DNA of 64,000 nucleotides from Mugil cephalus (lineage: Eukaryota > Chordata > Actinopteri > Mugiliformes > Mugilidae). The position numbers were made by a program, and so were the translations under genes. Below are positions 22,697 to 64,000 of this stretch, one piece after another. The notes below the pieces were generated by a model. That model searched no databases. It was not told the origin of the DNA and was given only the letters and a program-made list of their open reading frames with translations. The DNA lies in NCBI RefSeq assembly GCF_022458985.1, contig NC_061771.1:22269501-22333500 (forward strand), in the 5' to 3' direction. Every line of letters begins with the position of its first letter. The stretch's first letter is position 1.

Positions 22697-23650
22697 TCCT
22701 GCTTCTGGCTTCACTGCCACAGTTTCACTTTCTCATGTTTGCAGCTTTGATGGGATGACCAGAAAGGAAAAAGAAAAAAAAAAAAAAACTTCAGAGAGGA
22801 TGTGGTGTTAAAAGGGGTGCATTCAAACATTGTTTTCGACAATAAAAATGGGAGGGGCACAGAGCTTTCACTTCTGTCTACTTTTGGTGATTCATGTTGG
22901 GGGAATTTTTTTCTACGACCCTTTAAATTTGTCCCAGAAACTTGGTTCATACGTTGTTTCTAAGGTTTTTCTCTGGCTGAATTTCGTTTCATGTTCCCCT
23001 TGAGTGTCCATCTTGTTTTGGGGGTACAATTTCACCTTTATTGTCTTGAGTCTATGATCTGTTTACAACTACTCACGTATTTATTTGTATGTTTGCTGTA
23101 ATAGTACCATCTCTTAAGCTCATGTATGTTTTATTTTTTTCTGCATTTCTTTGGGTATATAAAACTTCCGTGTATTGTGTTGATTGCTTTAGCGGTTGCG
23201 ACCAAGTTTAGTATGTTCAGGAACTGTCAAGTTGGACTTTTTACCAAACTGCTTCATTTGATCAGAATTATTTAAAATTTCATTTGTGAAGATAGTCTTT
23301 GTTAAAGTCTAAATAAGTTTCATGGATGAGTGCTATGTAAAGTTTAACTGTAATGTTTTTGTGTTGGTATTGTGTACAAAAGTAATAATACACTTGATAC
23401 ATACTGTACATTGAGCATGGGGAGATGTTTATTGGGATTTAGCCCGTGCTTATATTACACAAGAACAATAGAAACATGTCAGATATAGTATAAATCCTTT
23501 TTATTGTTATCATTAAGATTAAACTGTGAGGTTAAACCTGTGTTCACTCCATCCAGTCGGCTAATGAATAATGTGACTGAATACGACTCAATCTATCATT
23601 GTTCCTTGTATTAATATTTCCTGTCACTGTAGTGGTTATTGGAAGATATC
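22697..23650 (+). pseudogene. G0: decayed ICAM-like gene relic
   Basis: Most degraded member of the array. CTGCTTCTGGCTTCACTGCC and AGTTTCACTTTCTC (22,721-22,734) correspond to the promoter of intact copies. GTCCCAGAAACTTGGTTCA and TTTTTCTCTGGCTG (about 22,930-22,985) correspond to the 5' UTR and signal-peptide exon, with no usable ATG. AAACCTGTGTTCACTCCATC (about 23,534) is the start of the domain-1 exon, which loses homology after about 25 bases. No reading frame survives. Confidence 0.75.
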
Positions 23651-23694
23651 TCAGTGGATTAAGGTAATCAAAAATGGAATACATTTGCTTTGTC

Positions 23695-24240
23695 GCCTTG
23701 ACAGTTCACTGCCACAGCTTTCACTTTCATTTCACTTGTTGGATTGACAATGCTGAAAAAAAAACAGGATGTGTGTGTATAAAACATGGTGTCAACTTGT
23801 CTACACATAAAAGGAGGAACTTGCACAGAACATTCACTTTTTAATTTCAGTTGGACACTTTTTTTACGAACGGCTTCATTTGATCCCAGAAACTTGCTTC
23901 AGTACGATTTTGTCTGATTTTTCTCTTGGCTGTTCTGCATGTCCACCATGTGTCAGCTTGGTGAGTACAGAGTTGTCACTCTTTATTGTCTTGTCTATTC
24001 TGTGTCAAGTACTCAGAGATTTCTTGTAGTGTTTGCCTGAAGACATGTTGTCCAGTCATGCTTGTTTATTTTTTCTGCATTGTCTTTGGTATATTTCCCC
24101 TGTGATTGTGTTATTGCAGCGTATTCGACAAAGTTAGTAGTTAGTAACTGGCAGATGGTGACAACTCTACATCTTGAAAAAGAATAATTGGTGAAATCAG
24201 TGAAGCACTTCTACAGAGATGCTGATTGATCTAACTTCAG
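23695..24240 (+). pseudogene. G1: ICAM-like promoter and signal exon relic
   Basis: The promoter keeps TTTC repeats (about 23,719) and the TATA-like CATAAAAGG (23,806-23,814). The signal-peptide exon equivalent is 23,907-23,960. Its ATG has become ATT and it has an in-frame TGA and a small deletion before the GTGAGT donor. Intron sequence continues to about 24,240. Domain-1 and domain-2 exons are absent. The next family sequence is the orphan stalk exon at 26,955. Confidence 0.75.
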
Positions 24241-24715
24241 TTAAAGTAGTGATGATGTGATGTGAAACTTACTCATGATACATACTAGTAAAGTTAGAAG
24301 GAGTCAGTCTGTGGAAGCCAACTAAATGGACTATAGAAAACGTCATTGGTGATAAAACATTGCTTATTACTGTACTGTACAAAAACCGTAACTTTACGTA
24401 GTACACAGTGATGAACTTTACATATCTTGTAATAATCCTGCCGAGGAACCTCTCGTTCTGTATTTAAAAAGACATAAAGGAATCGGTACTTGACAGAACT
24501 ATCCAATGGACTACGAGTTTATTAAAGGAAACATTTATCAAGATATTAACAGTTTTATAATTACTTGTCTTCTATGACTAACTGGATAAAAAGAGTTCAT
24601 TTACGGTACAGTGGCACTACTTAGAGCTGCATGTCTGTTTTTCCTCCCTCATATGTCATCGCGTACATTGCAGATAACATTTGTTATCTGCAACATACAT
24701 ACATACCTTAAAAAT
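24241..24715. other. Unassigned junction sequence with a perfect hairpin
   Basis: Links the G1 relic to the inverted-repeat arm. It contains a 12-bp perfect inverted repeat, TTGCAGATAACA (24,668-24,679) and TGTTATCTGCAA (24,682-24,693), separated by two bases. The corresponding place in the second unit (about 32,020-32,040) has the hairpin partly destroyed. No gene is seen. Confidence 0.6.
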
Positions 24716-26335
24716 ACATTCATCAGTCATTAGGATGTATGGATCCATAACATCAACAGGTCTTTTGGTGATTATACACACAAGTAAAATCACCCTGAAG
24801 ATTTGTGACGTTTTGTGCTGAAACAGATCAGAGCCACAGGACATTGACTTCCCAGTGTATTTTTATTATTGTTTCCTAGAAGTCCTGATATGGCCAATGT
24901 GAGCAGTCACGCCCTGTAAATGTCTCTTATTTGTTCTCTGTGAGTCTCAACACGATACCAACATTCAGTTTTTTTTACTCTGCAGTTAAAGCCTTAATTT
25001 AGACTTTTTAGACTTTATAAAGACTTTATTCACAACAAACATCTTACTAAAGTAAGTTTCTGGGGATCAATTGAAGCCGTTTGGTAGAAAAAAGTGTCCC
25101 AACTTGAAAGTGTTTCCTGGAAGTCCTGATATGTTAAATGTGGGTGGTCACACCCTCTAAATGTCTAAATGTCTAAATGTCTAGCCTTAACACAATACTG
25201 ACGTGAAGCTTTTTTTACTCTCCAGTTACAGAATGATCATTTTATGTGAGATACGCAATTAATGCATGAAGCTTGCTCAACATGCAGTGCATATGGTCAC
25301 TTTATTAGTTTATACTGTTAACATGATTACAGCATTAACAATGTAAAATCTCAATACACGGGTGTAGTAGTTATGTGAAGTCTCTTCATAGCATAGCATA
25401 ACATAATGTTCTGATTCTATTCTTCACTGATATGGTGAATGTTTAAGAATGAAATATAGCGTGATCTTTGAAAAATGGAGTGAAAAATAGCCACGGGGCA
25501 TTATTTTTAAACGGAGGGTCCTGTTATTTATTGTGGATTCCCAGTTGAATTTGTTGGACCCCTCAAAAACAAGATGGTTCATCTCAAGGGGCTAACCATG
25601 AATAAATTTGTTACGTATTTATGTCTATTGCACAGAGCAACCTTTCCAGAAACAAGCTGAATGCCTCCAGATGTTTGACCCAAAAGGCCGTTTGGTCACC
25701 TGCAGTTTTTACCGTCCAAAAACAATGTTATGCTTTGGGTCCCCCCCACTTCTGAAATCAAAATTTCGTCCTTTCCCTCCAGAGCTGGTTGGTTTTGTTC
25801 TTCATATTTATGCACTAAGGGTGTGGACAGCATCCAGTATTTGTACTTGTTGAGGGGAAAGCTGGCTCTTGGAACATGGAACGCCATTACTTATTACTTT
25901 TTAGTTACTTTCACCAAAATATAATATTTACGCATGGCATTACAAAATGAAGGTGGCAACATTTTGTCATGGCAAATAGTACTTTAATATTTTTCACCTT
26001 ATTCTTTTAATCTACTACAAGTATTTTTCCTCAGACACTGAGACACAAATCTCTAGTGACTCATAACTTATGTATTTCTATCCATATGTTTTCTTATTAG
26101 AGTTTTGTTCATTATACACCACAGTCTCATTTATGAGTACTGTAAAACACGGAGATGTATTATTGTTACTGTTAAAGTATTCTGACATGATGTGACAATA
26201 ACAACCATGAAAATCCCTCTGCAAACACAACTGACTTAAGAAATTAAAACGATTTTTAATCATTGAATCACCACTAACACGACCTGTAGTGTCTCATCCT
26301 AAATGAACTATTGGTCTAAATGTGTTTATACCTTA
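24716..26335. repeat. Left arm of large inverted repeat, unit 1
   Basis: About 1.6 kb that reads as the reverse complement of 29,017-30,603. It contains inverted pieces of the upstream region of the ICAM-like genes (including a 5' UTR copy near 25,040-25,110) and an inverted piece of the hAT relic. Short ORFs in it (for example one starting MLRIYVYCTEQ) recur in every copy but are not a recognisable protein. Confidence 0.85.
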
Positions 26336-26954
26336 AACATACATTCATATGATGAGGGACTCTCAAACCCAGCTTTTCAATGAATAAATCACTGTGTCCT
26401 GCACAGAGCCCGATATCTGCCTCCGAATCCCCTCTTTCCTCAGATGCAGAGCGCTGTCATGATCGTTAAAGTGTGGGAGATCATTATACAAGCTGGATAT
26501 AAACACAGTCGCCGTTCACCTATGCGCTTCCATTAACAATAGTGTAACAACACATTTGATTTGTTTGATTGAAAAAAAAAAGTAACAATAATCTCTGGCC
26601 TTCAGAGATCGGTCTTTATGGGAGAAGATCAAAACATGTTTTTGAGCTTAAGCTTCTACAGTGATACAGTCTGTCAGGCCTCTAGTCAGAATGTAACAGG
26701 CAGATAAATCAGCATCAGAGAGAAAAAACCCGGGATGACCCGGTCCAACATGTGACTGCTCACAGCTTTTCCTCCACATTCGGCATTTCTGCCGTTTACC
26801 TCTGTTAGTTTGGTGTGGGTGTGATTTGTGTACTTATGGGTAATTATGGGTGGGTTTATTATTATTGTTGTTATTTAGTATCACTAGTATCAATGGCCAC
26901 TCAGTGCCTCATCCAAAGATGCTGACTAACAAGCTTTAACGTCTGTGTTCACAG
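26336..26954 (+). other. Intron sequence upstream of orphan stalk exon, unit 1
   Basis: Over 90% alike by eye to 33,663-34,214. It leads into the splice acceptor TGTTCACAG before the stalk exon. The nearer part (from GGGTGGGTTTATTATTATTG) is also present before 38,947. No separate gene is seen. Confidence 0.6.
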
Positions 26955-27220
26955 ATACGGAGCCAACCACAACCATGGCCACGACCACAGCAACTTCAGA
27001 ACCAACGACGATGACAATGACAATGACAACGACTCCGATGACATCTGCGACAACAACCGCAGCAACTACAGCAACGGCTACGAAGGCAGCTACGACAACA
27101 ACCAGAACAACTACAACAACCGCAAAGACAACCACTGGACCTACCAACAGCAACAACAGCCTAACATCAGCTTACAGATCCATAGTGTGTTTTATGCTTC
27201 TGTTCTCTGCTCTTGTTTAA
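26955..27220 (+). pseudogene. Orphan terminal exon: long Thr-rich stalk plus GPI-type tail (unit 1)
   Basis: Last exon of the ICAM-like family, stranded without domain-1 or domain-2 exons on its 5' side. After a CACAG acceptor it encodes a stalk of about 65 residues dominated by Thr and Ala (TEPTTTMATTTATSEPTT, later KAATTTTRTTTTTAKTTT). This is a probable mucin-type O-glycosylated spacer. Then come SLTSAYRSIVCFMLLFSALV and a stop. The hydrophobic end with no cytoplasmic residues is what a GPI-anchor signal looks like. The frame is open, so it could still be spliced to an upstream donor, but no partner exon is visible within 3 kb. Confidence 0.7.
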
Positions 27221-30958: not shown

Positions 30959-31057
30959 AGGAACTGTCACAGAACATTCACTTTCTTAAATTTCAAGTTG
31001 GGACACTTTTTTCTACCGAACGGCTTCATTTGATCCCCAGAAACTTGCTTCAGTACG

Positions 31058-31893
31058 ATGTTTGTCTGCGTTTTTCTCTTGGCTGTTCTGCATGTCCACC
31101 ATGTGTCCAGCTTTGGTGAGTACAGAGTTGTCACCTTTATTGTCTTGAGTCTATTCTGTGTACAAAGTACTCAGAGATTTCCTTTGTAGTGTTTGCCTGA
31201 AAGACTATTGTCCTGCAGTTCATCTACGTTTATTTTTTTTCTGCATTGTCTTTGGATATTATTTCTCCTGTGATTGTGTTATTGCAGCGTGTTCGACAAA
31301 GTTAGTTGTTAGTAACTGGCAGCTGGTGACTGTTCTACATCTTGAAAAAGAATAATTGGTGAAATCAGTGAAGATCAGATCTTTGTTAACTGACATAGAG
31401 ATGCATGGATGAGTGCTACAGTATACAGTGTTAAGCATGTACGTGTATGTTTTGTTTGGCTATTGTGTACAACATGTAGACTACATACACTATGATATAC
31501 ATACTGTACATTAGAGCAGGGGAGATGTTTCAGTCTGTGGATTTAGTCGTACTTATACTACCAAGGAACTAATAGAAAACATGTCAGATATGAGGTATAA
31601 ATACATTTGTTTATATTACAGATTACAACTGTACAGATAAACCTGTGTTCACTCCATCCAGTCTGGTAGTGAAGTATGGAGACCCGACCTCTGCTACATG
31701 TGTTGCTTGTAATAATTCCTGCCAGGACCCTGGTTTGGAAAAATCTCAGGGAAAGAAAACAGTAAATGGAACTACGTTGGTGTGGACCGTTGACAGAATA
31801 ACTGAATGGGACTCAACTCTGATGTGTTATTACAACACTGCTGATAAACAGTGTGTAGAATTGCATAGACACGTACTTACACAGAACTTTTAA
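31058..31893 (+). pseudogene. G2: ICAM-like gene truncated in Ig domain 1
   Basis: Signal exon 31,058-31,115 is intact (MFVCVFLLAVLHVHHVSS). The domain-1 exon starts at 31,622 after TTACAG and keeps the paired cysteines (CVACNNSC), the NGTTLVWTVDRITEW block and GLEKSQG with Glu at the presumed integrin-contact position (codon 31,738-31,740). Homology stops at about 31,856 within DKQC. The frame then runs into foreign sequence and stops at 31,893, with no splice donor. Domain 2 is absent, and an orphan stalk exon follows at 34,215 after an inverted-repeat arm. Probably non-functional. Confidence 0.8.
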
Positions 31894-32061
31894 TATTTAT
31901 TGCCCCTCAGACCCCAACTGGTAGATATATAAGGCTTTCACATCGGTACAAGTCCCGGGTCGGACCTCCACCTGTGAGAGCTGCATGTCTGTTTTTTCCT
32001 CCCTCATACGTCATCGCGTATAACGTTTGTTATCTGCAACATACATACATACCTTAAAAAT
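31894..32061. other. Junction sequence between G2 and inverted-repeat arm
   Basis: About 100 bp (to about 31,975) seen nowhere else in the window, then CTGCATGTCTGTTTTTTCCTCC as in 24,626. It marks the breakpoint that truncated G2. Confidence 0.5.
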
Positions 32062-33662
32062 ACATTCATCAGTCATTAGGATGTATGGATCCATAACATC
32101 AACAGGTCTTTAGGTGATTATACACACAAGTAAAATCACCCTGAAGATTTGTGACGTTTTGTGCTGAAACAGATCAGAGCCACAGGACATTGACTTCCCA
32201 GTGTATTTTTATTATCATTTCCTAGAAGTCTTCTTATGGCCAATGTGAGCAGTCACGCCCTCTAAATGTCTCTTATTTATTCTCTGTGAGTCTCAACACA
32301 ATACCAACATTCAGTTTTTTTACTCTCCAGTTAAAGCCTTAATTTAGACTTTTTAGACTTTATAAAGACTTTATTCACAACAAACATCGTACTAAAGTAA
32401 GTTTCTGGGGATCAAATGAAGCCGTTTGGTAGAAAAAAGTGTCCCAACTTGAAAGTGTTTCCTGGAAGTCCTGATATGTTAAATGTGGATGGTCACACCC
32501 TCTAAATGTCCAGACTCATCACAATACCGACGTGAAGCTTTTTTTACTCTCCAGTTACAGAATGATCATTTTATGTGAGATACGCAATTAATGCATGAAG
32601 CTTGCTCAACATGGATATGGTCACTTTATTAGTTTATACTGTTAACATGATTACAGCATTAACAATGTAAAATCTCAATACACGGGTGTAGTAGTTTATG
32701 TGAAGTCTCTTCATAGCATAGCATAACATGATGTTCTGATTCTATTCTTCACTGATATGGTGAATGTTTAAGAATGAAATATAGCGTGATCTTTGAAAAA
32801 TGGAGTGAAAAATAGCCACGGGGCATTATTTTTAAACGGAGGCTCCTGTTATTTATTGTAGATTCCCAGTTGAATTTGTTGGACCCCTCAAAAACAAGAT
32901 GGTTCATCTCAAGGGGCTAACCATGAATAAATTTGTTACGTATTTATGTCTATTGCACAGAGCAACCTTTCCAGAAACAAGCTGAATGCCTCCAGATGTT
33001 TGACCCAAAAGGCCGTTTGGTCCCCTGCAGTTTTTACCGTCCAAAAACAATGTTATGCTATGGGTCAACCCCACTTCTGAAATCAAAATTTCGTCCTTTC
33101 CCTCCAGAGCTGGTTGGTTTTGTTCTTCTTATTTATGCACTAAGGGTGTGGACAGCATCCAGTATTTGTACTTGTTGAGGGGAAAGCTGGCTCTTGGAAC
33201 ATGGAACGCCATTACTTATTACTTTTTAGTTACTTTCACCAAAATAAATATTTACGGCATGGCATTACAAAATGAAGGTGCGCAACATTTTGTCATGGCA
33301 AATAGTACTTTAATATTTTCACCTTATTCTTTTAATCTACTACAAGTATTTTTCCTCAGACACTGAGACACAAATCTCTAGTGACTCATAACTTTATGTA
33401 TTTCTATCCATATGTTTTCTTAGTTAGAGCTTTGTTCATTCTCACCCACAGTCTCATTTATGAGTACTGTAAAACATGGAGATGTATTATTGTTACTGTT
33501 AAAGTATTCTGACATGATGTGACTGTAACAACCATGAAAATCCCTCTGCAAACACAACTGACTTAAGAAATTAAAACGATTTTTAATCATTGAATCACCT
33601 CTAACACGACCTGTAGTGTCTCATCTTAAATGAACTATCTTTCTAAATGTGTTTATACCTTA
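32062..33662. repeat. Left arm of large inverted repeat, unit 2
   Basis: Near-identical to 24,716-26,335 in the same orientation, and inverted relative to 36,309-37,285. The two left arms are about 7.35 kb apart, which gives the spacing of the duplicated unit. Confidence 0.85.
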
Positions 33663-34214
33663 AACATACATTCATATGACCTGAAGAATGGACCTGTCAA
33701 ACCCTCTGCGCTGTCATGATCGTTAAAGTGTGGGAGATCATTATACAAGCTGGATATAGACACAGTCGCCGTTCACCTATGCGCTTCCATTAACGATAGT
33801 GTAACAACACATTTGATTTGTTTGATTGAAAAAAAAAAAGTAACAACAATCTCTGGCCTTCAGAGATCGGTCTTTATGGGAGAAGATCAAAACTTGTTTT
33901 TGAGCTTAAGCTTCTACAGTGATACAGTCTGTCAGGCCTCTAGTCAGAATGTAACAGGCAGATAAATCAGCATCAGAGAGAAAAAACCCGGGTCGACCCG
34001 GTCCAACATGTGACGGCTCACAGCTTTTCCTCCACATTCGGCATTTCTGCCATTTACCTCTGTTAGTTTGGTGTGGGTGTGATTTGTGTACTTATGGGTA
34101 ATTATGGGTGGGTTTATTATTATTGTTGTTATTTAGTATCACTAGTATCAATGGCCACTCAGTGCCTCATCCAAAGATGCTGACTAACAAGCTTTAACGT
34201 CTGTGTGTTCAAAG
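33663..34214 (+). other. Intron sequence upstream of orphan stalk exon, unit 2
   Basis: Counterpart of 26,336-26,954, with a short internal deletion after CATATGA. The acceptor before the stalk exon is TTCAAAG rather than TTCACAG. Confidence 0.6.
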
Positions 34215-34474
34215 ATACGGAGCCAACCACAACCATGGCCACGACCACAGCAACTTCAGAACCAACGACAATGACAATGACAACGACTCCGATGACATCT
34301 GCGACAACAACAGCAGCAACTACAGCAACGGCTACGAAGGCAGCTACGACAACAACCAGAACAACTACAACAACCGCAAAGACAACCACTGGACCTACCA
34401 ACAGCAACAGCAGCCTAACATCAGCTTACAGATCCATAGTGTGTTTTATGCTTCTGTTCTCTGCTCTTGTTTAA
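34215..34474 (+). pseudogene. Orphan terminal exon: long Thr-rich stalk plus GPI-type tail (unit 2)
   Basis: Same exon as 26,955-27,220 but two codons shorter in the MTMT run. The frame is open to the stop and the hydrophobic tail IVCFMLLFSALV is kept. The splice acceptor has changed from ACAG to AAAG, which is still AG. No domain-2 exon lies upstream before G2's truncated domain 1. Confidence 0.7.
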
Positions 34475-37433: not shown

Positions 37434-37532
37434 AGGAGCTGGCACAGAGCATTCATTTTCTTAAATTTCAAGTTGGGACACTTTTTTCTACCAAACGGCT
37501 TCATTTGATCCCCAGAAACTTACTTTAGTACA

Positions 37533-39410
37533 ATGTTTGTCTGCGTTTTTCTCTTGGCTGTTCTGCATGTCCACCATGTGTCCAGCTGTGGTGAGTACAA
37601 AGTTGTCACCTTTATTGTCTTGAGTCTATTCTGTGTACAACGTACTCAGCGATTTACTTTGTAGTGTTTGCCTCGAAGACCATCATTTTAGAGCTCATGT
37701 ATGTTTATTTTTTTCTGTGTTTCCTTTGGATATTCTTTTTAAAAGTTGTTTTTATCATGTAAATGTAACTTCCAGTTTAGTAAAACCTGCACAGATGGCA
37801 TGTGTTTGTCCAATATCTGACACACATATTAGCATGCTAAGATGTTACATGAAAAAACAGTCAACACTATACAGCTCACATCACCAGACAGATAGATTGC
37901 TGTTATGTAGAAAATAAAGACACTTTAAAAACTTTTAAAAACATCGCTGCTGTTATTGCAGCGTGTTCGACAAAGTTAGTTGTTAGTAACTGGCAGCTGG
38001 TGACTGTTCTACATCTCGAAAAAGAATAATTGGTGAAATCAGTGAAGATCAGATCTTTGTTAACTGACATAGAGATGCATGGATGAGTGCTAGTCTCTAG
38101 TTTGCTTTGTGTGTCTCTCTACATCTTTGTCTCCTCAGAGACTCCAGAACATGTGTCCATCAGCTTTGTCCATCACACTGGGCCGATGGTTGAGGGTCAT
38201 CAGTACCAGCTGCAGTGTACCGTGGAGAACGTAGCTCCTGCTAAACACCTTGTTGTGACTTTCTACAGAGGAGAGACAGTCCTGGATCAACCTCAGTCTA
38301 AAAGTAGTGAACCCTATAAACCAGTGACTGAAACCTTCACTCTGAACATCAACGTTAGTAAAGAAGATAATGGAGCTCAGTTCTGGTGTGAAGCCAAACT
38401 AGAACTGGGACCTGAAGGACCACAACCCCCTCCAGTGGTGAAATCAGAAAACATCACTGCTACAGTCAACTGTGAGTCTGATAAGAAAAACACTCAAATT
38501 TAAGTAGTAGCTCAGTGGCATGGAAACATCTTTCAACAAACAGTCTTCTAACTAACTCACTGCTCGATGATGATAAAACTCTTGTGTCTGTACTTTAACA
38601 AATGACAAAAGGAGATCCAGGACTAGACAGCAACATTCCCAAACTGCACTAAGAAAGTTTATTTTTTAAAGGACATTTTATCAAATATAAACAATCTCTT
38701 AATTTACTTGTTCTTCTATGCACTAAAACAAATGGAAAAAAAGAGAAGTTATTTACAGATTACTATGCCATAATGTTACTGGTCTGGCCCACTTCAGATC
38801 AAACTTGGCTGTATGTGACCAACTAAAATTACATTATGGGTGGGTTTATTATTATTGTTGTTATTTAGTATCATTAGTATCAACGGCCACTCAGTGCCTC
38901 ATCCAAAGATGCTGACTAACAAGCTTTAATGTCTGTGTGTTCACAGATACGGAGCCAACCACAACCACGGCCACGACCACAGCAACTTCAGAACCAACGA
39001 CGATGACAATGACAACGACTCCGATGACATCTGCGACAACAACCGCAGCAACTACAGCAACGGCTACGAAGGCAGCTACGACAACAACCAGAACAACTAC
39101 AACAACCGCAAAGACAACCACTGGACCTACCAACAGCAACAGCAGCCTAACATCAGCTTACAGATCCATACTCCACACTCTCTGGGTACGTTTGCCTTGT
39201 ATACCTTGTATTCCTGTAACATTATCCCCTGTCATAGTAGCTACATACAGAGTGTATAGAAGAGCGTGGCAAATTAGGCCAAAACAAACCACTGGCGGTA
39301 AATACAAATACCCCCATAGTCAGTGTTTATTTGTGTTGCTGGCATTTGTTGACCGGAAAACAAGTGAAATGTCTAATGTTAGCCAGGCTTATAATATTGT
39401 CGTTGCCTAG
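37533..39410 (+). pseudogene. G3: ICAM-like gene lacking domain 1 and GPI tail
   Basis: Signal exon 37,533-37,590, domain-2 exon 38,139-38,471 (333 nt, TPEHVSISFVHHTG to the ACT|GTGAGT donor) and a long Thr stalk exon from 38,947. The domain-1 exon is cleanly deleted (junction near 38,089). Because all introns are phase 1, signal and domain 2 still join in frame. In the last exon homology ends after AYRSI. The frame continues about 80 residues (LHTLWVRLPC...) to a stop at 39,410 with no GPI-type tail, so any product would be secreted or misfolded. A roughly 185-bp inverted piece of the family 3' flank sits in its first intron (37,742-37,926). Could be an expressed single-domain variant, but I lean to pseudogene. 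Confidence 0.65.
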
Positions 39411-48180: not shown

Positions 48181-50050
48181 GAGGAACTGTCACAGAACAT
48201 TCACTTTGTGGATTTCAAGTTGGGACACTTTTTTCTACTGAACGGCTTCATTTGATCCCCAGAAACTTGCTTCAGTACGATGTTTGTCTGCGTTTTTCTC
48301 TTGGCTGTTCTGCATGTCCACCATGTGTCCAGCTGTGGTGAGTACAGAGTTGTCACCTTTATTGTCTTGAGTCTATTCTGTGTACAACGTACTCAGAGAT
48401 TTACTTTGTAGTGTTTGCCTCGAAGACCATCGTCTTACAGCTCATGTATGTTTATTTTTTTCTGCACTTCCTTTGGGTATTATTTCTCCCGTGACAAATT
48501 TAGTAGTCATTAGCAGATGGTGACGACTCTACATCTTGAAAAAGAATAATTGGTGAAATCAGTGAAGATCAGATCTTTGTTACCGGCATTGAGATGCATG
48601 GATGAGTGCTACAGTATACAGTGTTAAGCATGTACATGTATATTTTGTTGGGGTATTGTGTACAACACGTAGACTACATACACTATGATATACATACTGT
48701 ACATTAGAGCAGGGGAGATGTTTCAGTCTGTGGATTTAGTCGTACTTATACTACCAAGGAACTAATAAAAATCATATCAGATATGAGGTATAAAAACATT
48801 TTGTTGTTTATCTTACAGAGTACAACTGTACAGATAAACCTGTGTTCACTCCATCCAGTCTGGTAGTGAAGTATGGAGACCCGACCAATGCTACATGTGT
48901 TGCTTGTAATAACTCCTGCCAGCACCCTGGTTTGGAAAAACCTCAGGGAGAGGTAACAGAAAATGGAACTACGTTGGTGTGGACCGTTGACAGAATAACT
49001 GAATGGGACTCAACTCTGACGTGTTATTACACTGGTGATGAACAGTGTTGTACTGACCTGGATTTAACTGTACTGTAAAAAAAAAAAAATATCTTAAAAA
49101 AAAAACGGTAAATTTCTGGCAGCAGGGGTGCCATAAAAATACCGTAAAATAACGGAAAATTACTTTCTCATATAAATACAGTTATTTTCCATAATTAAAA
49201 TACAGTTTGTACTTGTTATTTTAACAAGATTTGCCGTATTTTCGGGTTGTTTTAACGTTTAATTAGAAACATTTCACATTTTAAAACAGTTAAATCACCT
49301 AGAAATATGGTAAATAATAATGCTTACACTTACAGAAATGTGCTGTTATTAATCGGTTTTAATGACATTTTATGGGAAGAGATTGTATAATAATTTATAT
49401 TTGATGTAATACAACAGTATGTGGCACAAAATAATGTGATTGATCTTTCAAAATACGTCAAAAAACTGTTGCAAAACTAGATAGATTGCAAGAATTTTAA
49501 TTTTAGAAAACATCAAATGGATATTTAATTGTTTTACGTTGTTTTTAACGTTTAATTTCAAACATTTTACATTTTAAAATAATGAAATTACCCATAAAGA
49601 CGACAAATTAACATTGTAATATGAATAATAATGCTTAAAGTTGGAGAAATGTGCTCTTATTAGTTGTTTTTAATGGCATTATTTTATTTAAAAGGGCTGC
49701 AGGCCTATTAGATTAGATGTAATATAACAGTATACAACAATAATTTGATCTTTTCAAAACATGAGAAAAAATGAGACCAAGCTGAACAAGAACAGCTACA
49801 ATTTCCCATTCTCCGTATTTTTATTCAACTGTAGCAGGTAGCCATTATTAAAGCAATATTCAAAAATCTATTCAATTAAAATGACTGGTTCTGAAACAAA
49901 AAAAAACCCCAATAAAATTCAACTGAACTAGTAATGAAAGAAAAAAGTAAAAAAAAAAAATAGTTCAGTTACCAATTTACATACAAGTCACCATACATCC
50001 ACAACACTGATTAGAAACTTGATAAAACATCACTGGAAATTAATCCATAC

Positions 50051-50741
50051 CAGGGGTTGGCAACACTCAAAGAGCCATTTGGAAAGAAAACACTGGGAGC
50101 CACAAAACCCCTTTGACATCTAAAATGAAGTTACACTGCATATATATCGTTTTCACCTCTATACTAGGCCTATAGTGTGTTGCATTTATGAAATAAATAG
50201 AAAACGAAAATTGCATTATGCATACATAACGGGGATTTATCCATGGTTGGCTTATCTGGGGTCGAAAAGTTCAATAAATAGCGAGCTGGACCTGCCGGCG
50301 GGTGTCGCACGTCGGCAGTTGTGGCGTATATCTTGTGCAACAAAAAATTAAATACATTTTTTTTAATGTTAAAAGATCACCATCAATTCAAATTTAGAAT
50401 TATATTTAAAAAAACTAACGCACTAAAATAAAAATACATTTGAATTAAATACTCGACAGCAACTACTAAATGAGCTGCAATGCACTCTGGGAGTTCAGTG
50501 TTTTTTGGTTGATGTTACAACCATGAGTGTGGTGTGGCATTCAGTGTCATTCAGTTGTTGTGTAACTCTCGCTCGTTCACTGATGAATGACTAGTTGCCG
50601 CTATTCTGAGGCAGTTAGTTAGCGTGAAAAAGTGAACGGCTTTGATCAGCATCCTTGCTCTGCAGCGCTCGCTGCAGAAAGCTGTAACAGAGGAACGAAA
50701 GAGCCGCATGCGACTCCGGAGCCGCGGGTTGCCGACCCCTG
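50051..50741. mobile_element. Non-autonomous hAT element nested in the CACTA-like element
   Basis: Termini CAGGGGTTGGCAACACTC and GGGTTGCCGACCCCTG are inverted. Flanking octamers ATCCATAC and CTCTATAC agree at 6 of 8, in line with an 8-bp hAT target duplication. 691 bp with no transposase. It lies next to the minus-strand Ser/Thr-rich exon of its host. Confidence 0.75.
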
Positions 50742-51390
50742 CTCTATACAGTTGACGAGGTGTAGTGTCCATACTTGAACTACTTGTTGATCGTAGTGAA
50801 GTTGCAGTTTCTGAGCTGTAACCACCTGAAAAGAAGGCAGAAAATATTCGCTGTTATTAATAATATAGTTAGCTGTTATTAAATAATAACAGCTAATACC
50901 AGTTTAAGAGGCAGGACCAGGATAAAGGTGCAAGAAGATACAGCCTTTTCCAACACCACAGCAGTCACACGAGTCCCACTATAGATGACACCGTTGCTTT
51001 GGGACAGACAAGCTTGCAAGATCTCAACATAACACACTACAAAGAAAATACACACCAGACTGACTATACATGGGAACTAAATGAACAACATATTGTTGTT
51101 GGGGGAACTATTGCTACTGTTGGATACAAAAGTCATTTTTTTCTGTACATTGTGATAAAGTATCCTGTGTTCATCCCATAATCCCATCCCATCATTAGTT
51201 GTGTGTCATTTGCTACCGAATCAGAATCTAGAGAAGATAGACCCAACTGATGATACTGATTTATAAGCATACTGTCAATTCACTGCTGCTGATTGTACTA
51301 TATTACACTAAGTTACAGGTAGATTATGTTATTTTTCAGCCCATCTAACCCAAAAGAGTAATTGTGTGCAACAGATGCATGTACTCACCA

Positions 51391-51505
51391 GAGAGGGGCA
51401 TCTGGTCAGACTGTGTTACTGGACTTGTAGTGGTACTGGTACTGGCTCTGCTCAACTGTTGGTTGCTCTGGCTGCTTGGAGGACTGTCCAAGACATGTTG
51501 TTGGC
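51391..51505 (-). CDS. Ser/Thr/Gln-rich linker exon of the CACTA-encoded antisense gene
   Basis: The minus strand reads QQHVLDSPPSSQSNQQL and TSTTTSPVTQSDQMPLS, ending at a GTGAGT donor. A similar exon fragment (SSETATSLRSTSSSSSMDTT) lies at about 50,750-50,825, interrupted by the nested hAT. Splice limits are approximate. Confidence 0.4.
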
Positions 51506-51872
51506 CTTATTAAAGGACAGATAGTAGTAATATTTAAACACAGACATCACATAGCTCATTCTGGGTATATTATTACCTAACATAATTATATCCTCAGTAG
51601 CCATTGGTATATTTTAAACTGTTCCTTTCTCAATATAATGCAGTACACCACCACTAAGACCCACTATGAAATCAATGATGAACAAGGTGTAGTGTATAGT
51701 CATCACCTTTTTCAAAACATCAACAAAAATGTAGAGAAGATTCTTTGAAGTATAATTCATAGTAGAACTGCTGTATTGGACTGCATTGATTAGTACAGGT
51801 GGACCTAATAAGTAGATTATGCACATTTTTTTAATGTGAAAGTTTATCTGTACAAATTGAAACACATACTTG

Positions 51873-52056
51873 TCTTTTTGAGCAGTGACAGACGTTTCCT
51901 GGCTTCAACTGGTCTGAGGACAGACACAAGGTCACTCTCCTGCAGGTAGCTCAGGTCCTTAACTCCTAAACATTGCAGATGCTCCAGCAAAGGCTCAGGG
52001 TCTCTCAGTTTAGGCACTGATTTGATGAAAGACAGAAGCGGACTCTCTGCATCCAT
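51873..52056 (-). CDS. SAM-like domain exon of the CACTA-encoded antisense gene
   Basis: MDAESPLLSFIKSVPKL then LEHLQCLGVKDLSYLQESDL and PVEARKRLSLL. The helix pattern, with GVKDLSYLQESDL in the middle and a final PVEARKRL helix, resembles a sterile alpha motif. It ends at an ACAA|GTATGT donor. Probably not a host gene. Confidence 0.45.
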
Positions 52057-52240
52057 GACTGGAAGGACTAGAAGGGATGAAAAATACTGTTACTGTCAGA
52101 TTTTAATCTCTCAAACTCCAGATTACTCAGAGTCAACAGTGCTATGCTTAAGTGAAATTACTCTTGTCCCACAAAGCTTGTACACATGCGAATGGTAATA
52201 ATCTAGTTTCTGCTCAGGCTTCCAACATTTCATGCTTGTT

Positions 52241-52540
52241 TCACTTTATACAATGCAAATGCTGGCACATAGGAAACATCATGAGGTGAACAATAAAGTA
52301 TACGTGCTGGTCCTGCATCACAAGCATGAGCTGAATCCGTCTGAATTCAAGTGCCTCACCTTGGTTTAAACACAGAAAGACCTTTTTTGTACTGAGTGCC
52401 TTTCCACTGCACTTCGGTAGCTGCTCAACATTGAGTTCTTTGACTGAGGTTTCTCCTACTGTGAAGTGCACTGCTTCACTGTACAGTTCAGCATGGAAAG
52501 GAGTGGAGTTCTTAACCACCAGTTTATGCCATGAAATCAA
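52241..52540 (-). CDS. Unrecognised exon of the CACTA-encoded antisense gene
   Basis: 100-codon frame with KLVVKNSTPFHAELYSEAVH and EALEFRRIQLMLVMQDQHVY. It lies upstream of the SAM-like exon on the same strand and is probably part of the same transposon-encoded protein. The true splice ends and start are not settled. Confidence 0.35.
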   Translation of the reverse strand: MISWHKLVVKNSTPFHAELYSEAVHFTVGETSVKELNVEQLPKCSGKALSTKKVFLCLNQGEALEFRRIQLMLVMQDQHVYFIVHLMMFPMCQHLHCIK

Positions 52541-53636
52541 CTCTCACCACTTATCTGCAGAGAGAAAGAAAAAAAATGATGAATCATGAAATTTGCCAAA
52601 ATCAAAAAAAAAATGCTATTGGTTGTGAAAAAGTCGACCTAAACCGTGTTAGCAGATCTCCCCTCAATAAACTAGAAGATGATCGTTAGCTTATCCTTTA
52701 CATATTTTTCAGTATTGTTTTGAATTTCATGTTGACCACTGGTTAGTGTTGCACCAAAATTAAAATTTGAAAAACCTTGAAAAAGGTAGAGTAGGTCGCT
52801 CCTCCTATATTTGTGAGAGGCAAGAGGAAGATGAAAATATTAGTTTTAAGAAAGAGTAATTGGTTGAAGTAAACCATTACCAAATCTCAGTATCATTTAT
52901 AAAACATTTGTTCTCTCTTCTTTGGAAGAAAATACACTTAAAATGTCTCATTAGCGACACCTGCATGTGGAGGAGTAGGAGCAGTCTGGTTGGAAAGAAG
53001 ACTTTGACATTTTGACAAGTTCCATAAAATCCAGCTTCCTATCCTAGCCAGAAATCATGCCATTTCAAGACACGCAGTAAAAGTCATGGCCAAAAAACTA
53101 GTGAAAATGTAGAAGAGGGTTAATAATCGATTATTGTTCAGTGTTGCAGCTCTAAACAAATGTTGTTCCTCTTTCTCTCTGCATGTGTCAGTCAGTTCAC
53201 AAAAGTAAACGTAATGACTGTTAAGTGCTAAGCTGATGTTAGTGTAAATAAAATAAAAAGTGTGTGGTCTGGCTGACTACTAACACTCATATATATATAT
53301 ATATCTATGACTAACACTGGCAGACGCCACGTGAAGACGCCGCCGCCGGCCATTCTTTTGTCATCATAGTTAGCTAACATTTCAATTGACGACATGCTAG
53401 CGGATTCGTTTTGTAGACTGAGTAAAGTAAGAGGCATGGTGGTAAATAAAGCTAATACTACTAAGCTTCAGTTTGATACTTGCCTTCTGCCTTTGTTCTT
53501 CCTCCAGCCTCGACATTAGCTGCTTTTTGCTCCAAGTTTCTGTGACCAAATGGGAACAGCCGCGTGGTGGTTGTTGACCTTGTTAAGCGTAACGTCAAAG
53601 ACGGATGTTCAGTGTCCCAACAGCCAATGGCATATC

Positions 53637-53667
53637 TTCTTCTTCTTCTTCTTCTTCTTCTTCTTCT
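53637..53667. repeat. (TTC)n microsatellite
   Basis: About ten TTC units inside the CACTA-like element near its right end. It causes spurious poly-Glu and poly-Leu ORFs. Confidence 0.9.
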
Positions 53668-56029
53668 CCAACCGTTTCTGTCGACCAATCGAAACGGGAC
53701 CCGCGCTTTTCAAAGCACGCACCCCAATGACATGTCGCGTTCATGTTTTTTCTTTTCTGTTTGTGCAGGGAGACGTTGCAGCAGTAAAATGTCTCCTGAC
53801 TACACGTGTTTTGTTCAGACATGCTGTGAAATAATTCAAGACGTTGTGATTTCTTTTTGTAAAAGAACAAAAATATCATGTTTTCATACGTAATTTCACA
53901 GCTACAATGATTTCATGATATTTTAGATTTGATATGTAAAATCACAGTCTCTTTTCGTTGATTGTCCAGATTGTTTCTGTATTTTAAAAATACAGAAATA
54001 ATCTGTAAAAATAAACAATAAAATTTCATATATTACAATTATTACAGTGTGTCTACCGTAACTAAACACTTTTAAGATTGATGGTTTTATCATTTATAGT
54101 CAGAATTTAATCTCTTTATTAGCTCAGATTAACAGTAGTTACAGGGATTTATAGTCTCTAGTTTGCTTTGTGTGTCTCTACATCTTTGTCTTCATCCTTG
54201 TCTCCTCAGAGCCTCCAGAACATGTGTCCATCAGCTTTGTAAATCACACTGAGCCGATGGTTGAGGGTCATCAGTACCAGCTGCAGTGTACCGTGGAGAA
54301 CGTAGCTCCTGTTAAACACCTTGTTGTGACCTTCTACAGAGGAGAGACAGTCCTGGATCAACCTCAGTCTAAAAGTAGTAAAAACTATAAACCAATGACT
54401 GAAACCTTTACTGTGAACATCACTGCTAGTAAAGAAGATAACGGAGCTCAGTTCTGGTGTGAAGCCAAGCTAGAACTGGGACCTGAAGGACCACAGCGCC
54501 CTCCAGTGGTGAAATCAGAAAACATCACCCCTACAGTCAACTGTGAGTCTGATAAGAAAAAAAAAATGACACTAAAATTTCAATAATCGCTCAGTGGCAT
54601 GGAAACACCTTTCAACAAACACAGTACATGGGATCAGACGGCCAAGCTGACGCTGTGGTCAGGCTTCTGTCTTCTTTAGCCATCCGTTTGACACACGGGC
54701 GTTACGCTCTCTTTAAACTTCTTGATGATGATAATAAACTTTCATATCTGTACTTAGAACTTTCTAGCATAGCTTAGCATAGACTGAAAACAGTAGCACA
54801 GGGCTTGACTGGTGTCATCCTGCAAGAACAGAAAAGTTAAAGGCTGGAGCGTGACCAAGATGTCCATGGCGACGTGTCAACTTTTAAAATAATTACAATT
54901 TCCAACAGGTTGTGTATTCAAGATTCAAGAAGCTTAAACTGGGCAATGAAATTCTTACTTTGCGAGTTCCCTCCACACAGCTAAAATAAACATAATAATA
55001 AACTATAGTAAAATGATAAATAAACACATGTCCTGCGGGCCAAACTTCTGTTCCTAATTTGTCCACTGTTTTAATCAGAGAAGTGGACAGAACACAAGAC
55101 TGAGACCCAGGACTAAACAGCAGACAGGAACGGGCCCAAACTACACTAAAACATTTTATTAAATGTAAACACTCCCAATTTACTTTTTCTTTTTTACTCT
55201 AAAACAAATGAAAACAGGTTATTTACAGGTTACTATGCCATAATGTTACTGGCCCGGCCCACTTCAGATCAAACTGGGCTGTACGTGACCAACTAAAATG
55301 ACACACCTGGTCTAACAGGATGTGTTTTGTCAGGCTGCTGAACGCTCAGGTCGACTGTAGTATTATTATTATTGTTGTTGTGTGTTATTATTATACAGTG
55401 TGTTTTATGCTTCTGTTCTCTGCTCTTGTTTAACAATATGACTGCACAGTTCATTTTCTGCTTCAGCTCAATGACGTCAGTCTAATTAGTCTCCTAAGCT
55501 CACCTGGAAACCTCAAGTTATGAATAATGTGAATCCTCTGTAATACCGATATTTACTGTATCCACTAGATGGCATCAGCTTGTTGGTGGACGTAGCTTTC
55601 ATGTTTGTGCATATGCTGAATATTTTGTAATAAGCGATGAGTTAGAGTGTCTTTATTTTCTAGATAACAGCAATCTATCTGTCTGGTGATGTCAACTGTA
55701 TAGTGTTGACTGTTTAGTTAAAGGGGAAAAAAAGAACCAAAAAAGTAAAAGAAGAGGTGTTTCTGTTGTCTATCTTTGTGAGTGTCTGTGTGTGTACATT
55801 TATTAGGACCTTTACAGAAAGTGAGAACCCCCACTCACTCGCCAAAACATTAGGTCCACAGGTGATTTCGCCAACGTGTTGATATCAAAAGCTGTCATCA
55901 TTCAGACAGAAGTACAACTATGGTGTCAGGTCAGTGTTCTTCTGCTCTCCTGAGGACACGTCTCCAAGATGCAGCTTTATTTTATTTTTTTAAGTTCATC
56001 TGAGTTAATAGAGACGTTGTGAATAAAGT

Positions 56030-56825: not shown

Positions 56826-58804
56826 ATGTTTGTCTGCGTTTTTCTCTTGGCTGTTCTGCATGTCCACCATGTGTCCAGCTGTGGTGAGTACAAAATTAAA
56901 CCACTGTCACTTTTATCGTCTATTGCAGCGTGTTCGACAAATTTAGTAGTTAGTAACTGGCAGCTGGTGACTGTTCTAAATTTCGAAAAAGAATAATTGG
57001 TGAAATCAGTGAAGATCAGATCTTTGTTAACTGACAGAGATGCATGGATGAGTGCTACAGTATACAGTGTTAAGCATGTACATGTATATTTTGTTTGGCT
57101 ATTGTGTACAACACGTAGACTACATACACTATGATATACATACTGTACATTAGAGCAGGGGAGATGTTTCAGTCTGTGGATTTAGTCGTACTTATACTAC
57201 CAAGGAACTAATAGAAAACATGTCAGATATGACGTATAAATACATTTGTTTATTTTACAGATTACAACTGTACAGATAAACCTGTGTTCACTCCATCCAG
57301 TCTGGTAGTGAAGTATGGAGACCCGACCTCTGCTACATGTGTTGCTTGTAATAAATCCTGCCAGTACACTGGTTTGGTAAAACCTCAGGGAGTGGTAACA
57401 AAAAATGGAACTACGTTGGTGTGGACCGTTGACAGAATAACTGAATGGGACTTAACTCCGACGTGTTTTTACAACACTGATGATGACAAACAGTGTTGTA
57501 CTGACCTGAATGTAACTGTCTACCGTAAGTAAACTTGACCAAAACACTTTTAACATTGATGGTTTTATCATTCAGAGTCAGAATTTATTCTCTTTATTAG
57601 CTCAGATTAACAGTAGTTACAGGGATTTATAGTCTCTAGTTTGCTTTGTGTGTCTCTCTACATCTTTGTCTCCATCCTTGTCTCCTCAGAGCCTCCAGAA
57701 CATGTGTCCATCAGCTTTGTCCATCACACTGGGCCGATGGTTGAGGGTCATCAGTACCAGCTGCAGTGTACCGTGGAGAACGTAGCTCCTGTTAAACACC
57801 TTGTTGTGACCTTCTACAGAGGAGAGACAGTCCTGGATCAACCTCAGTCTAAAAGTAGTGAACCCTATAAACCAGTGACTGAAACCTTCACTCTGAACAT
57901 CAACGCTAGTAAAGAAGATAATGGAGCTCAGTTCTGGTGTGAAGCCAAACTAGAACTGGGACCTGAAGGACCACAACCCCCTCCAGTGGTGAAATCAGAA
58001 AACATCGCTGCTACTGTCAACTGTGAGTCTGAAAAGAGAAATCAACACTTAAATTTAGATATGATGGATGGAAACATCTTCCAACAAACACAGCACATGG
58101 GATCAGACGGCCGTTACACTCTCTTTAAACTGCTCGATAATGATAAAACTCTCATGTGTGTACATGTCTGAGCAGGTTGTGCATTCCAGATTCAAGAAGC
58201 TTAAACTGGGCAATGATATTCTTACTTTGTGTGTTCCCTTCACTCAGCTAAAATAAACTTATTCTAGGCATAGAAGAATGAAATATATATATATAATATT
58301 AATTTGTGCATAAATGACAGAAGAACTGCAAGATGTCCACGGTGACGTGTCAACATTTAAAATAATTACAGTTTCCAACAGGTTTCCGATTCAAGATTCA
58401 AGAAGCTTAAACTGGGCAATGAAATTCTTACTTTGCGAGTTCCCTCCACACAGCTAAACCATAATGTTACTGGCCTGGCCCACTTCAGATCAAACTGGGC
58501 TGTACGTGACCAACTAAAATGACACACCTGGTCTAACAGGATGTGTTTTGTCAGGCTGCTGAACGCTCAGGTCGACTGTACTATTATTATTATTATACAT
58601 TATACATTATTAATGTATCATTAGTATCCATGGCTGCTTTGTGCCTCATCCAAAGCTGCGGATTAACAAGCTTTAACTGTCTGTGTGTTCACAGATACGG
58701 AGCCAACCTCAGCAGCAACGACTATGATGACATCTACCAACAGCCTAACATCACTTTACAGATCCACAGTGTGTTTTATGCTTCTGTTCTCTGCTATTTT
58801 TTAA
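56826..58804 (+). CDS. G6: ICAM-like two-Ig-domain protein with short stalk and GPI-type tail, complete
   Basis: Compact copy: exons 56,826-56,883, 57,261-57,524, 57,690-58,022 and 58,695-58,804. These give 765 nt and 254 residues, all introns phase 1 with GT-AG borders. Domain 1 (about 20-107) has one extra Asp (NTDDDKQCC) relative to G4, and GLVKPQG with Val where ICAM has its integrin-contact Glu (codon 57,377-57,379). Domain 2 (about 108-218) differs from G4 at few positions (DQPQSKSSEPY). The tail reads YTEPTSAATTMM, then LYRSTVCFMLLFSAIF and stop, probably a GPI signal. It is the best candidate for a functional gene of the array: intact frame, TATA-like box, no insertions. Alternative reading: a secreted or VCAM-like Ig receptor rather than a true ICAM orthologue. 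Confidence 0.78.
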
Positions 58805-59600: not shown

Positions 59601-59639
59601 TGAGGTGCTAATAAAAGTTTCCTCACTGAACATCCTTTC

Positions 59640-60630: not shown

Positions 60631-60639
60631 TAATACAAA

Positions 60640-61985: not shown

Positions 61986-62059
61986 TAGTTGAGTTGAAAT
62001 TGAATTGAACACGGGTCTCCATTTAAAATAATTCCGCTGTGGCTATTTTTCACTCATCA

Positions 62060-62718
62060 ATTATTATTGCGCTGTTTTCAAAGTTCACGCTGTATTTCAT
62101 TCTTAAACATTCGCCATATCTGTGAAGAATAGAATCAGAACATCATGTTACGCGATACCAGCTGAATGACAAGACTTTACAGACACACTTTACAACTACT
62201 GCACCCTTGTATTAAGATTTTACATTCTTAAAACTGCTGTAATCATGTTAACAGTATAAACTAATAAAACGGCCATATGCACTGCGTGTGGAGGACGCTT
62301 AATGCATTGATTATCTCATATAAAATGATCATTCTTTAACTGGAGAGTAAAAAAACTGAATGTTGGTATTGTGTTGAGACTCACAGAGAATAAATTGGAG
62401 ACATTTTAAGGGTGTAACTGCTCACATTGACCATATCAGGACTTCCAGGAAATGATAATAAAAATCCACTGGGAAGTCAAGGAATGTCCTGTGGCTCTGA
62501 TCTGTTTCAGCACAAAACGTCACAAATCTTCAGGGAGATTTTGACTTGTGTGTATAATCACCAAAAGACCTGTTGATGTTATGGATCCATACATCCTAAT
62601 GACTGATGAATGTGTGTGTGTCAAACCAGTGTGTTCACCTTAACCCCAGCAGGCTACAATGAAAAAAGTGCACTGAATACGTACAGTCAAACAATCAGTT
62701 CAGCTCCAGTCAGTGACT
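62060..62718 (+). repeat. Array upstream module before G7
   Basis: Begins with the same sequence as 42,520 (TCACGCTGTATTTCATTCTT), includes TAACTGGAGAGTAAAAAAAC and the RPVDVMDPYILMTDECV frame, and ends at CAGTCAGTGA, where foreign sequence is inserted. Confidence 0.65.
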
Positions 62719-63300
62719 TAAGCAATATTATAAGTAATATATAAGTAATATTGTGATTATACAACAATTACCAACAAAATAAAGTGTGTAATTAAATATA
62801 TATTCATGTTGATGGACATTTTGCTCTCAAAATTTTGTTTTTTTTGCGAGCGTGCTTCCCGTTTCCATGGAAATAAATGGGGTCTGACTAATAACTGGAA
62901 CACATCAGTCACGTCAGTAGACTCCTATGTGTAATTCTGTTCAGCTCTTCTTTTGTCACAGTTGTGAAAATCTACATCTTGCTTGGTGGTTTTCAGATAG
63001 TCCTGGAAACATCTGACTGCCCAAGACATTGATCTGGCCATGGTCCATTCATTCCTGGACAATTCCAGTTGATTCAGTTCTTTATCCGAAATAGGCACAA
63101 TTCTTTCTTTGTATTTTTTATTTTATTTTGGTTATTCTCATCCTCCTCCAACCATTCATCAAAACTGAGACCACCAAATAAATCGAAATTTACAACAAAC
63201 CAATCCATTTCGTAGTGTATTTTTCAGCTGCTTCCTGCTCCAGCTCTGACAGTTACAGTGTTACAGTGTTGGAGATGGATACAATGATGCCACAGACTTG
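62719..63300. other. Insertion of unknown origin upstream of G7
   Basis: About 0.58 kb absent from the other copies, between CAGTCAGTGA and GCAACTGTTCTACCACAAAG. AT-rich, with TAAGTAATAT repeats at its left. Just before its end, the frame GYNDATDLTEQLFYHKVYHG runs on into conserved flank sequence. Not recognised. Confidence 0.5.
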
Positions 63301-63936
63301 ACAGAGCAACTGTTCTACCACAAAGTCTATCACGGGAGAGAGGGGACAGACTTGTACTGCTTCTGGTCCCCTGACAATTCGCTGGCACACATTCACATGT
63401 CAGCGGCTTTGATGACTTGACTTGAAAGGAAAAGAGTGGATGGGTGGTGTAAAACCATGGTACTTTCCCAACATTGTTTCTTGAATTTCAAGAAAGTGAA
63501 AGCTCTGTGACAGCCCCTTTTTGAGTGTGTGCCAAACGGCTTCATTTGATCCCCAGAAACTTGCTTCAGTACGATTTGCGATCTGCGTTTTTCTCTTGGC
63601 TGTTCTGCATGTCCACCATGTGTCCAGCTGTGGTGAGTACAGAGTTGTCACCTTTATTGTCTTGAGTCTATTCTGTGTACAAAGTACTCAGCGATTTGCT
63701 TTGTAGGGTTTGCCTCGAAGACCTGCAGTTCATCTGCGTTTAATTTTTTTCTGCGTTTCCTTTGGGTATTCTTTCTCCTGTGATTGTGTTATTGCAGCGT
63801 GTTCGACAAATTTAGTAGTCATTAGCAGATGGTGACAACTCTACATCTTGAAAAAGAATAATCGGTGAAATCAGTGAAGATCAGATCTTTCTTACTGGCA
63901 TTGAGATGCATGGATGCACTGACCTGGATGTAACTG
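63301..63936 (+). pseudogene. G7: ICAM-like gene relic
   Basis: The promoter has lost the TTTC cluster (CACACATTCACATG). The signal exon equivalent, 63,574-63,632, has ATT instead of ATG and a +1 change. The intron is followed at about 63,916 by a deletion that fuses ATGCATGGATG to CACTGACCTGG, removing nearly all of domain 1 and its acceptor. The last bases of domain 1 run into the CACTA-like element. Confidence 0.8.
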
Positions 63937-64000
63937 CACTGTAAAAAAAAAAAATCTTTAAAAAACGGTAAATTTCTGGCAGCAGGGGCGCCATAAAAAT
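63937..64000. mobile_element. CACTA-like element, left end (runs off the window)
   Basis: CACTGTAAAAAAA followed by ACGGTAAATTTCTGGCAGCA, the same left end and the same exon insertion point (after AACTG) as 49,071. The rest lies beyond the window. Confidence 0.8.

Follow-up and report, generated by a model that had tools for sequence, protein, structure and literature searches.

The window analyzed here, a 64,000-nucleotide stretch of Mugil cephalus DNA (contig NC_061771.1, positions 22,269,501 to 22,333,500 of the forward strand), carries a tandem gene array on its plus strand that follows the 3′ end of gtf3c1 and reaches the window end. Judged from sequence, the array consists of about eight copies, in the order A0, A1, B, C, D, E, F and G, of a gene with four exons and phase-1 introns. 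Exon 1 encodes the signal peptide, exon 2 the first immunoglobulin (Ig) domain (D1), exon 3 the second (D2) and exon 4 the C-terminal end. With a probability of about 0.72, we read the locus as a tandem birth-and-death array of ICAM/VCAM-type two-Ig fish genes, two members of which are intact. These two, genes D and F, span 43700-47287 and 56826-58804, respectively, and comprise the following exons.

43700..43757, plus strand: gene D exon 1, signal peptide MFVCVFLLAVLHVHHVSSC, phase 1 (exon search, splicing)
44137..44397, plus strand: gene D exon 2, Ig domain 1, ICAM_N-like, with the C-D stretch GLVNPQGKKTKN (sequence search, Pfam)
44563..44895, plus strand: gene D exon 3, Ig domain 2, C2-like (profile search, model, Foldseek)
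47178..47287, plus strand: gene D exon 4, short Ser/Thr linker, hydrophobic tail and stop; putative glycosylphosphatidylinositol (GPI) signal (hydropathy)
56826..56883, plus strand: gene F exon 1, signal peptide (exon search)
57261..57524, plus strand: gene F exon 2, Ig domain 1, with GLVKPQGVVTKN (sequence search)
57690..58022, plus strand: gene F exon 3, Ig domain 2 (sequence search)
58695..58804, plus strand: gene F exon 4, short linker, hydrophobic tail and stop (hydropathy)

Counted exon by exon, exon 1 occurs at seven sites, together with a decayed trace in A0 that is visible solely when A0 is aligned with copy B; exon 2 occurs at four sites and as one fragment, exon 3 at four sites, and exon 4 at five sites and as one bare tail remnant. 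Four further matches to the exon 1 query, which match only or almost only sequence upstream of exon 1, were left out of this count, and a match at 23238 was ruled out as the exon 1 fragment of A0 in that it sits in the upstream flank. The 58 bases of exon 1 are the same in C, D, E and F, and genes D and F share 94% identity across 1.67 kb, far beyond chance. An earlier sequence-only reading of this DNA had described a tandem family adjoining gtf3c1, with eight copies of a four-exon gene and two of them complete (its G4 and G6, which we take to be D and F), and the exon searches and the gtf3c1 match given below bear this out. The idea that every copy is a working gene was rejected, since six of the eight are broken. 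The array may extend past the window, because copy G runs off its end.

In both D and F, all four phase-1 exons are open throughout and are joined by consensus splice sites, with the stop codon at the same place and an AATAAA signal ≈390 bases (D) or ≈750 bases (F) beyond it. The predicted proteins are 253 (D) and 254 (F) residues long, D1 of F carrying a one-residue insertion, and contain seven and six sequons, respectively, one of them at the junction of D2 and the linker. Three features pointed out in the sequence-only reading, namely the cysteines of D1, the motif FYRGE and introns of phase 1, are borne out in the spliced genes. The D1 of ICAMs is held by a double disulfide between a CxxxC in the B strand and a CxxxC in the F strand, and has fewer cysteines than D1 of gene D. 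The protein of gene D has cysteines at positions 19, 23, 46, 49, 53, 88, 97 and 98; CNNSC is present, a single Cys stands at the F-strand place, the second F-strand partner may be C97 or C98 (D numbering), and 19, 23 and 46 are extra. The cysteine count of D is even if Cys19, possibly the mature N terminus, is included. The third intron of D is ≈2.3 kb long, and inside it lies an unrelated minus-strand open reading frame (ORF) of 188 codons (46465-47031) with no clear relative in Pfam or PDB.

To place the family, we compared the spliced proteins by phmmer with PDB, and thus with solved structures only. The protein of D gave 15 matches at E values up to 10, the best of which, to ICAM-1 (2.3e-13), spans D1 and D2. 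The 13 matches at 1.6e-6 or better are ten chains of ICAM-1, -2 or -5 and three of VCAM-1; of the remaining two, one is an antibody (0.36) and one a further chain of ICAM-1 (0.65). For F, the same 13 chains lead the 23 matches at E values up to 1, ranging from 2.3e-12 to 2.1e-6, and the other ten stand at 0.19 or worse. ICAM-1 ranks first for both proteins, with VCAM-1 weaker at about 2e-6. A profile of D2 likewise placed these 13 ICAM/VCAM-1 chains in front of its 17 matches (E up to 1). In the structural model of D2, which has a mean predicted local distance difference test (pLDDT) score of 76.7, the 12 best Foldseek matches are VCAM-1 or ICAM-1, -2 or -5, with query-normalized template modeling (TM) scores of 0.73-0.84; matches 13 and 14, both below an E value of 0.001, come from entries for a nanobody complex and for RIFIN-LAIR1. 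By sequence comparison, then, the predicted spliced proteins of D and F are of the ICAM/VCAM type, and D2 has the sequence and, as modeled, the fold of that family.

The evidence for D1 is more mixed, and several results weigh against the assignment. The D1 model failed (pLDDT 36.9), probably because its input was four near-identical sequences. D1 of copy B alone finds ICAM-1 at an E value of 0.48 with antibody light chains just behind, and scores the Pfam families Lep_receptor_Ig and ICAM_N alike, both below cut-off; D1 of copy E alone gives a sub-threshold Lep_receptor_Ig match only, and the D1 exon of F alone gives no Pfam match. Against ICAM_N (PF03921; cut-off 21 bits), spliced D scores 25.7 bits, above the cut-off, whereas spliced F, at 15.1, falls below it. 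The D1 exon of D reaches 19.2 bits with flanks and 17.7 alone, that of B alone 18.7, and those of E and F alone give no ICAM_N match at E values up to 0.1. The proposal of a two-Ig ICAM-type molecule, with an ICAM_N hit to be expected, thus holds for the combined D1-D2 match and for the D2 fold, and at the Pfam level for D but not F, while D1 lacks a usable model. Two further searches with copy D returned nothing related: D1 and D2 had no match in NCBIfam, and an IMG/VR scan with D2 gave 39 pattern matches and no relative.

The remaining six copies and the flanking gene are laid out as follows.

21211..21483, plus strand: last coding part of gtf3c1, flanking gene (E 5.9e-8 to General transcription factor 3C polypeptide 1, 8cli chain A)
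22891..23568, plus strand: copy A0, decayed, resembling copy B at 73% and retaining an exon 1 trace and an exon 2 fragment at 23463-23568 (alignment)
23853..27220, plus strand: copy A1, with a decayed exon 1 (start codon lost) and an open, long Thr-rich exon 4 plus tail at 26955-27220
30999..34474, plus strand: copy B, with exon 1 at 31058-31115, exon 2 at 31622-31854 and a long Thr-rich exon 4 ending at 34474; keeps GLEKS
37474..39170, plus strand: copy C, with exon 1 at 37533-37590, exon 3 at 38139-38471 and a long exon 4 from 38947
48221..55433, plus strand: copy E, with exon 1 at 48280-48337, exon 2 from 48819 and exon 3 from 54210; keeps GLEKP
63532..64000, plus strand: copy G, with an exon 1 lacking ATG, exon 2 mostly deleted and the start of an insert; runs off the window

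Besides its match to General transcription factor 3C polypeptide 1, the gtf3c1 ORF has a single one within an E value of 1, to a viral packaging protein (0.013). Each of the six copies is broken in its own way. Exon searches found no exon 2 or exon 3 in A1; in B, exon 3 is absent and the end of exon 2 is replaced by other sequence; C has its exon 2 deleted and its anchor tail lost. In E, an insert of ≈5 kb that ends near 54048 breaks exon 2 at ≈49072, and only the tail of exon 4 remains, at 55397. This insert (49072-54048) has ACTGTAA...TTACAGT ends, and its start recurs in copy G (63940-64000) at the same place in exon 2, so that the insertion may predate the duplication of the two copies. 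A birth-and-death cluster, as the sequence-only reading had it, fits this picture once corrected to six broken copies in eight.

Genes make up only part of 22697-64000, much of which consists of repeats or resembles transposons, and an Rfam scan of the whole window gave no match. A segmental duplication of ≈5.3 kb pairs 24623-26352 with 31977-33679 and 26451-29932 with 33708-37224 at 95-97% identity, and carries the long exon 4 of A1 and of B. A transposase-like ORF on the minus strand (40969-41289) encodes a Brinker DNA-binding domain, scoring 33 bits in Pfam, above cut-off. Upstream of the genes, a minus-strand motif, GAAAGTGAAA, which we take to be of the interferon-stimulated response element (ISRE)/interferon regulatory factor (IRF) type, occurs at 23719, 30850/30856, 43494, 48075/48081 and 56625, that is, ≈186-208 bases upstream of the start in five of the seven copies with a clear exon 1. 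It is missing in C, lies at 63492 on the opposite strand in G, and is present at 22723 in A0. The window contains 18 instances of the looser form GAAANNGAAA, and a search of it for an NF-kB consensus gave no match. We rejected the ISRE-like motif as a sign of regulation, as it may be shared by descent.

At the C terminus, the protein of D ends in TVCFMLLFSALV and that of F in TVCFMLLFSAIF, with no residues behind. The hydrophobic end noted in the sequence-only reading is thus present in both, as a terminal 12-residue stretch with a mean hydropathy of 2.45-2.51 and no cytoplasmic tail; the mucin-like stalk postulated alongside it is absent from the intact genes, in which a short Ser/Thr-rich linker of ≈23 residues stands just before the tail. 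The long Thr-rich stalk exon occurs only in the broken copies A1, B and C, with 57-59% Ser/Thr before the last 15 residues of the exon in A1 and B. By hydropathy, D and F combine a signal peptide with a C-terminal hydrophobic tail that nothing follows, and Ser residues shortly before the tail are candidate omega sites by eye. Neither protein has a transmembrane segment with a cytoplasmic tail, the stop coming at the end of the hydrophobic stretch. From this hydropathy profile, we consider it fairly likely that the tail is swapped for a GPI anchor; otherwise the protein would be secreted. That D and F are secreted decoys instead, the 12-residue tail being too weak an anchor, seems to us unlikely. 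The best 19-residue tail window reaches a hydropathy of just 1.5-1.6 in both proteins, copy C has no tail, and exon 2 of copy E reads into a stop because the insert sits a few bases before the splice donor, all of which would suit secretion. Yet the tail is near-unchanged in A1, B, D and F, and a remnant of it survives in E, as would be expected of a required anchor signal.

Sequence variation among the copies is unevenly spread over D1. Among the four copies B, D, E and F, 17 of the 77 positions compared are variable (the one-residue insertion of F was excluded), and codons 1-30 hold just one of the 17 (P 0.001), which points to constraint on the first part of the domain. An alignment of D with F shows 5 differences over 376 bases of intron 1, none in the opening 92 bases of exon 2, and eight in the 60 bases that come next, the C-D part (Fisher 6e-5). 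Later exon 2 also exceeds the intron in B/D (4e-4) and B/F (7e-4), so that the D1 exon has changed more than the adjacent intron in three of the six copy pairs. Published contacts of ICAM-1 with LFA-1 are E34, P36, K39, Q62, M64, Y66 and Q73 (PMC7796194 and PMC9146328). Mapped by hand on the alignment of copy B D1 with ICAM-1, five of these seven positions are variable in the fish D1 and two invariant (P=0.005 (0.0049)). This published set supersedes a list of six contacts (E34, K39, M64, Y66, N68 and Q73; 5/6 variable, P 0.0016). We claim from these alignments that change appears concentrated at the D1 tip while the first part of D1 appears constrained, and we hypothesize diversifying selection at the tip.

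Several observations count against such selection. In the three pairs that include copy E, exon 2 does not exceed the intron (Fisher 0.72-1.0), since in these pairs the intron has diverged just as far. The 23 non-synonymous and five synonymous changes, counted by hand on the D1 exon alignment, are not above neutral expectation (P 0.32), nor is the 12:1 ratio in codons 31-47 (P 0.15). Gene conversion that homogenizes intron 1 could by itself make exon 2 look fast. At 13 sites the copies split two against two, seven grouping D with F against E with B and six grouping D with B against F with E; these conflicting sites are interleaved, which suggests that the copies swapped segments or mutated in parallel. 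Positive selection as a proven result was therefore rejected, the ratio test being non-significant and the intron excess confined to B/D, B/F and D/F. The same data bear on the idea of a mostly dead cluster, in which D and F would be open yet not meaningfully expressed and the D1 variation a neutral mosaic of patchy conversion. The six broken copies, the repeated and transposon-like sequence between the genes, the neutral ratio and the lack of excess in pairs with E all speak for it. However, D and F have each retained an open frame through all four exons, splice sites that match the consensus and a stop at the corresponding position, and the scarcity of variation in the first 30 codons of D1 argues for constraint; we regard this explanation as distinctly improbable.

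One of the variable positions is that of E34, which is Val in the intact D and F and Glu in the broken B and E. Neither D nor F has an Asp or Glu anywhere in the C-D stretch, and so the acidic integrin-binding (metal ion-dependent adhesion site, MIDAS) residue is absent from the C-D region of their D1. The placement of a gap at E34 is ambiguous, which weakens this comparison: the alignment of copy B D1 pairs the fish Glu with E34, whereas the phmmer alignment of spliced D leaves E34 of ICAM-1 opposite a gap. Because the acidic MIDAS residue is lacking, we term D and F ICAM-like and not ICAMs proper. According to PMC4237329, a glutamate mediates the binding of ICAM-1, -3 and -5 to the alphaL I domain; since this residue is missing, D and F are unlikely to bind alphaL in that way, and they would more likely than not be poor canonical I-domain ligands. 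The integrin-ligand role implied by the sequence-only reading is accordingly weakened, as both intact copies lack the acidic residue. A contrary view is that these are ordinary teleost ICAM-2-like integrin ligands, in which the acidic residue is dispensable or supplied elsewhere, and that the array is a routine lineage-specific expansion. It draws on the two-Ig layout shared with ICAM-2, the ICAM-family matches, the acidic residue retained in B and E, and the rise of ICAM2 in vaccinated catfish (PMC13211737). The C-D stretch of D and F without Asp or Glu, at the place where ICAM-1, -3 and -5 use a glutamate for the alphaL I domain (PMC4237329), stands against it, and we find it doubtful.

Among known adhesion molecules, ICAM-2 (CD102) is a two-Ig ICAM with a transmembrane segment. 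It shares with the fish proteins the two Ig domains, the D1-D2 sequence relation (E 5.8e-11 for D) and the D2 fold (query-normalized TM score 0.84), but D and F lack its acidic residue, carry extra D1 cysteines and have no counterpart of its cytoplasmic tail (PMC10886500). The D1-D2 of ICAM-1 (CD54) is the best sequence match and shares the CxxxC of D1, as well as an MCYxN stretch matched in copy B. It differs in that its second F-strand cysteine is replaced by Thr at the matching place in fish D1, and in having five Ig domains (PMC10886500) where D and F have two. VCAM-1, similar across D1-D2 (E 1.5e-6) and the best Foldseek match for D2, offers a family precedent for GPI linkage in the three-Ig GPI-linked splice form of the mouse protein (PMC9735769). 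In VCAM-1, however, the GPI form arises by alternative splicing from a gene with seven Ig domains, whereas the hydrophobic tail is the sole end found for the fish gene.

The domains of teleost NITRs are of the V type. NITRs and NILTs are also clustered fish Ig gene families (PMC2442602, PMC3022915). They differ from the array described here in having cytoplasmic immunoreceptor tyrosine-based inhibitory or activation motifs (ITIM/ITAM) of their own and, in the case of NILTs, V-type domains (PMC2442602, PMC3022915), while the mullet array has ICAM-type domains and no cytoplasmic tail. ICAM-type genes have been named in fish, as ICAM2 in catfish, where it rises upon vaccination (PMC13211737), and icam-1 in zebrafish (PMC8592016). 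Because of these named genes and the GPI precedent in VCAM-1, the description of the combination as unusual is best softened. No GPI-anchored or tandem fish ICAM family is described among the literature matches listed, a result that does not extend to subscription papers or genome annotation. D and F are thus ICAM-like by descent while failing two features of ICAMs, the acidic residue and the transmembrane segment with a tail.

Taken as a birth-and-death array with two intact members, the locus would encode a short, tail-less ICAM-like ligand, carried on a GPI anchor or secreted. Its glycosylated D1-D2 would be presented such that the tip of D1 contacts a counter-receptor borne by a second cell, and the protein of D or F would by itself be incapable of signaling or of binding the cytoskeleton. 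Lacking the acidic residue, D and F would more likely serve as decoys or engage a different partner. Versions would be created and destroyed by duplication, by deletion, by insertions and probably also by gene conversion. A bolder extension is a fish-specific, tail-less, GPI-anchored ICAM-like system in which conversion diversifies the integrin-contact tip and the intact members are variable decoys or receptors for pathogens or other partners, integrin binding having been shed and the Glu-bearing versions lost; this we put forward as speculation and think quite unlikely. If D and F are expressed, fish would possess ligands of the ICAM type that are independent of both the cytoskeleton and the classical glutamate-MIDAS contact, and both the non-mammalian evolution of leukocyte adhesion ligands and a diversifying pressure on the fish D1 tip would become directly testable.

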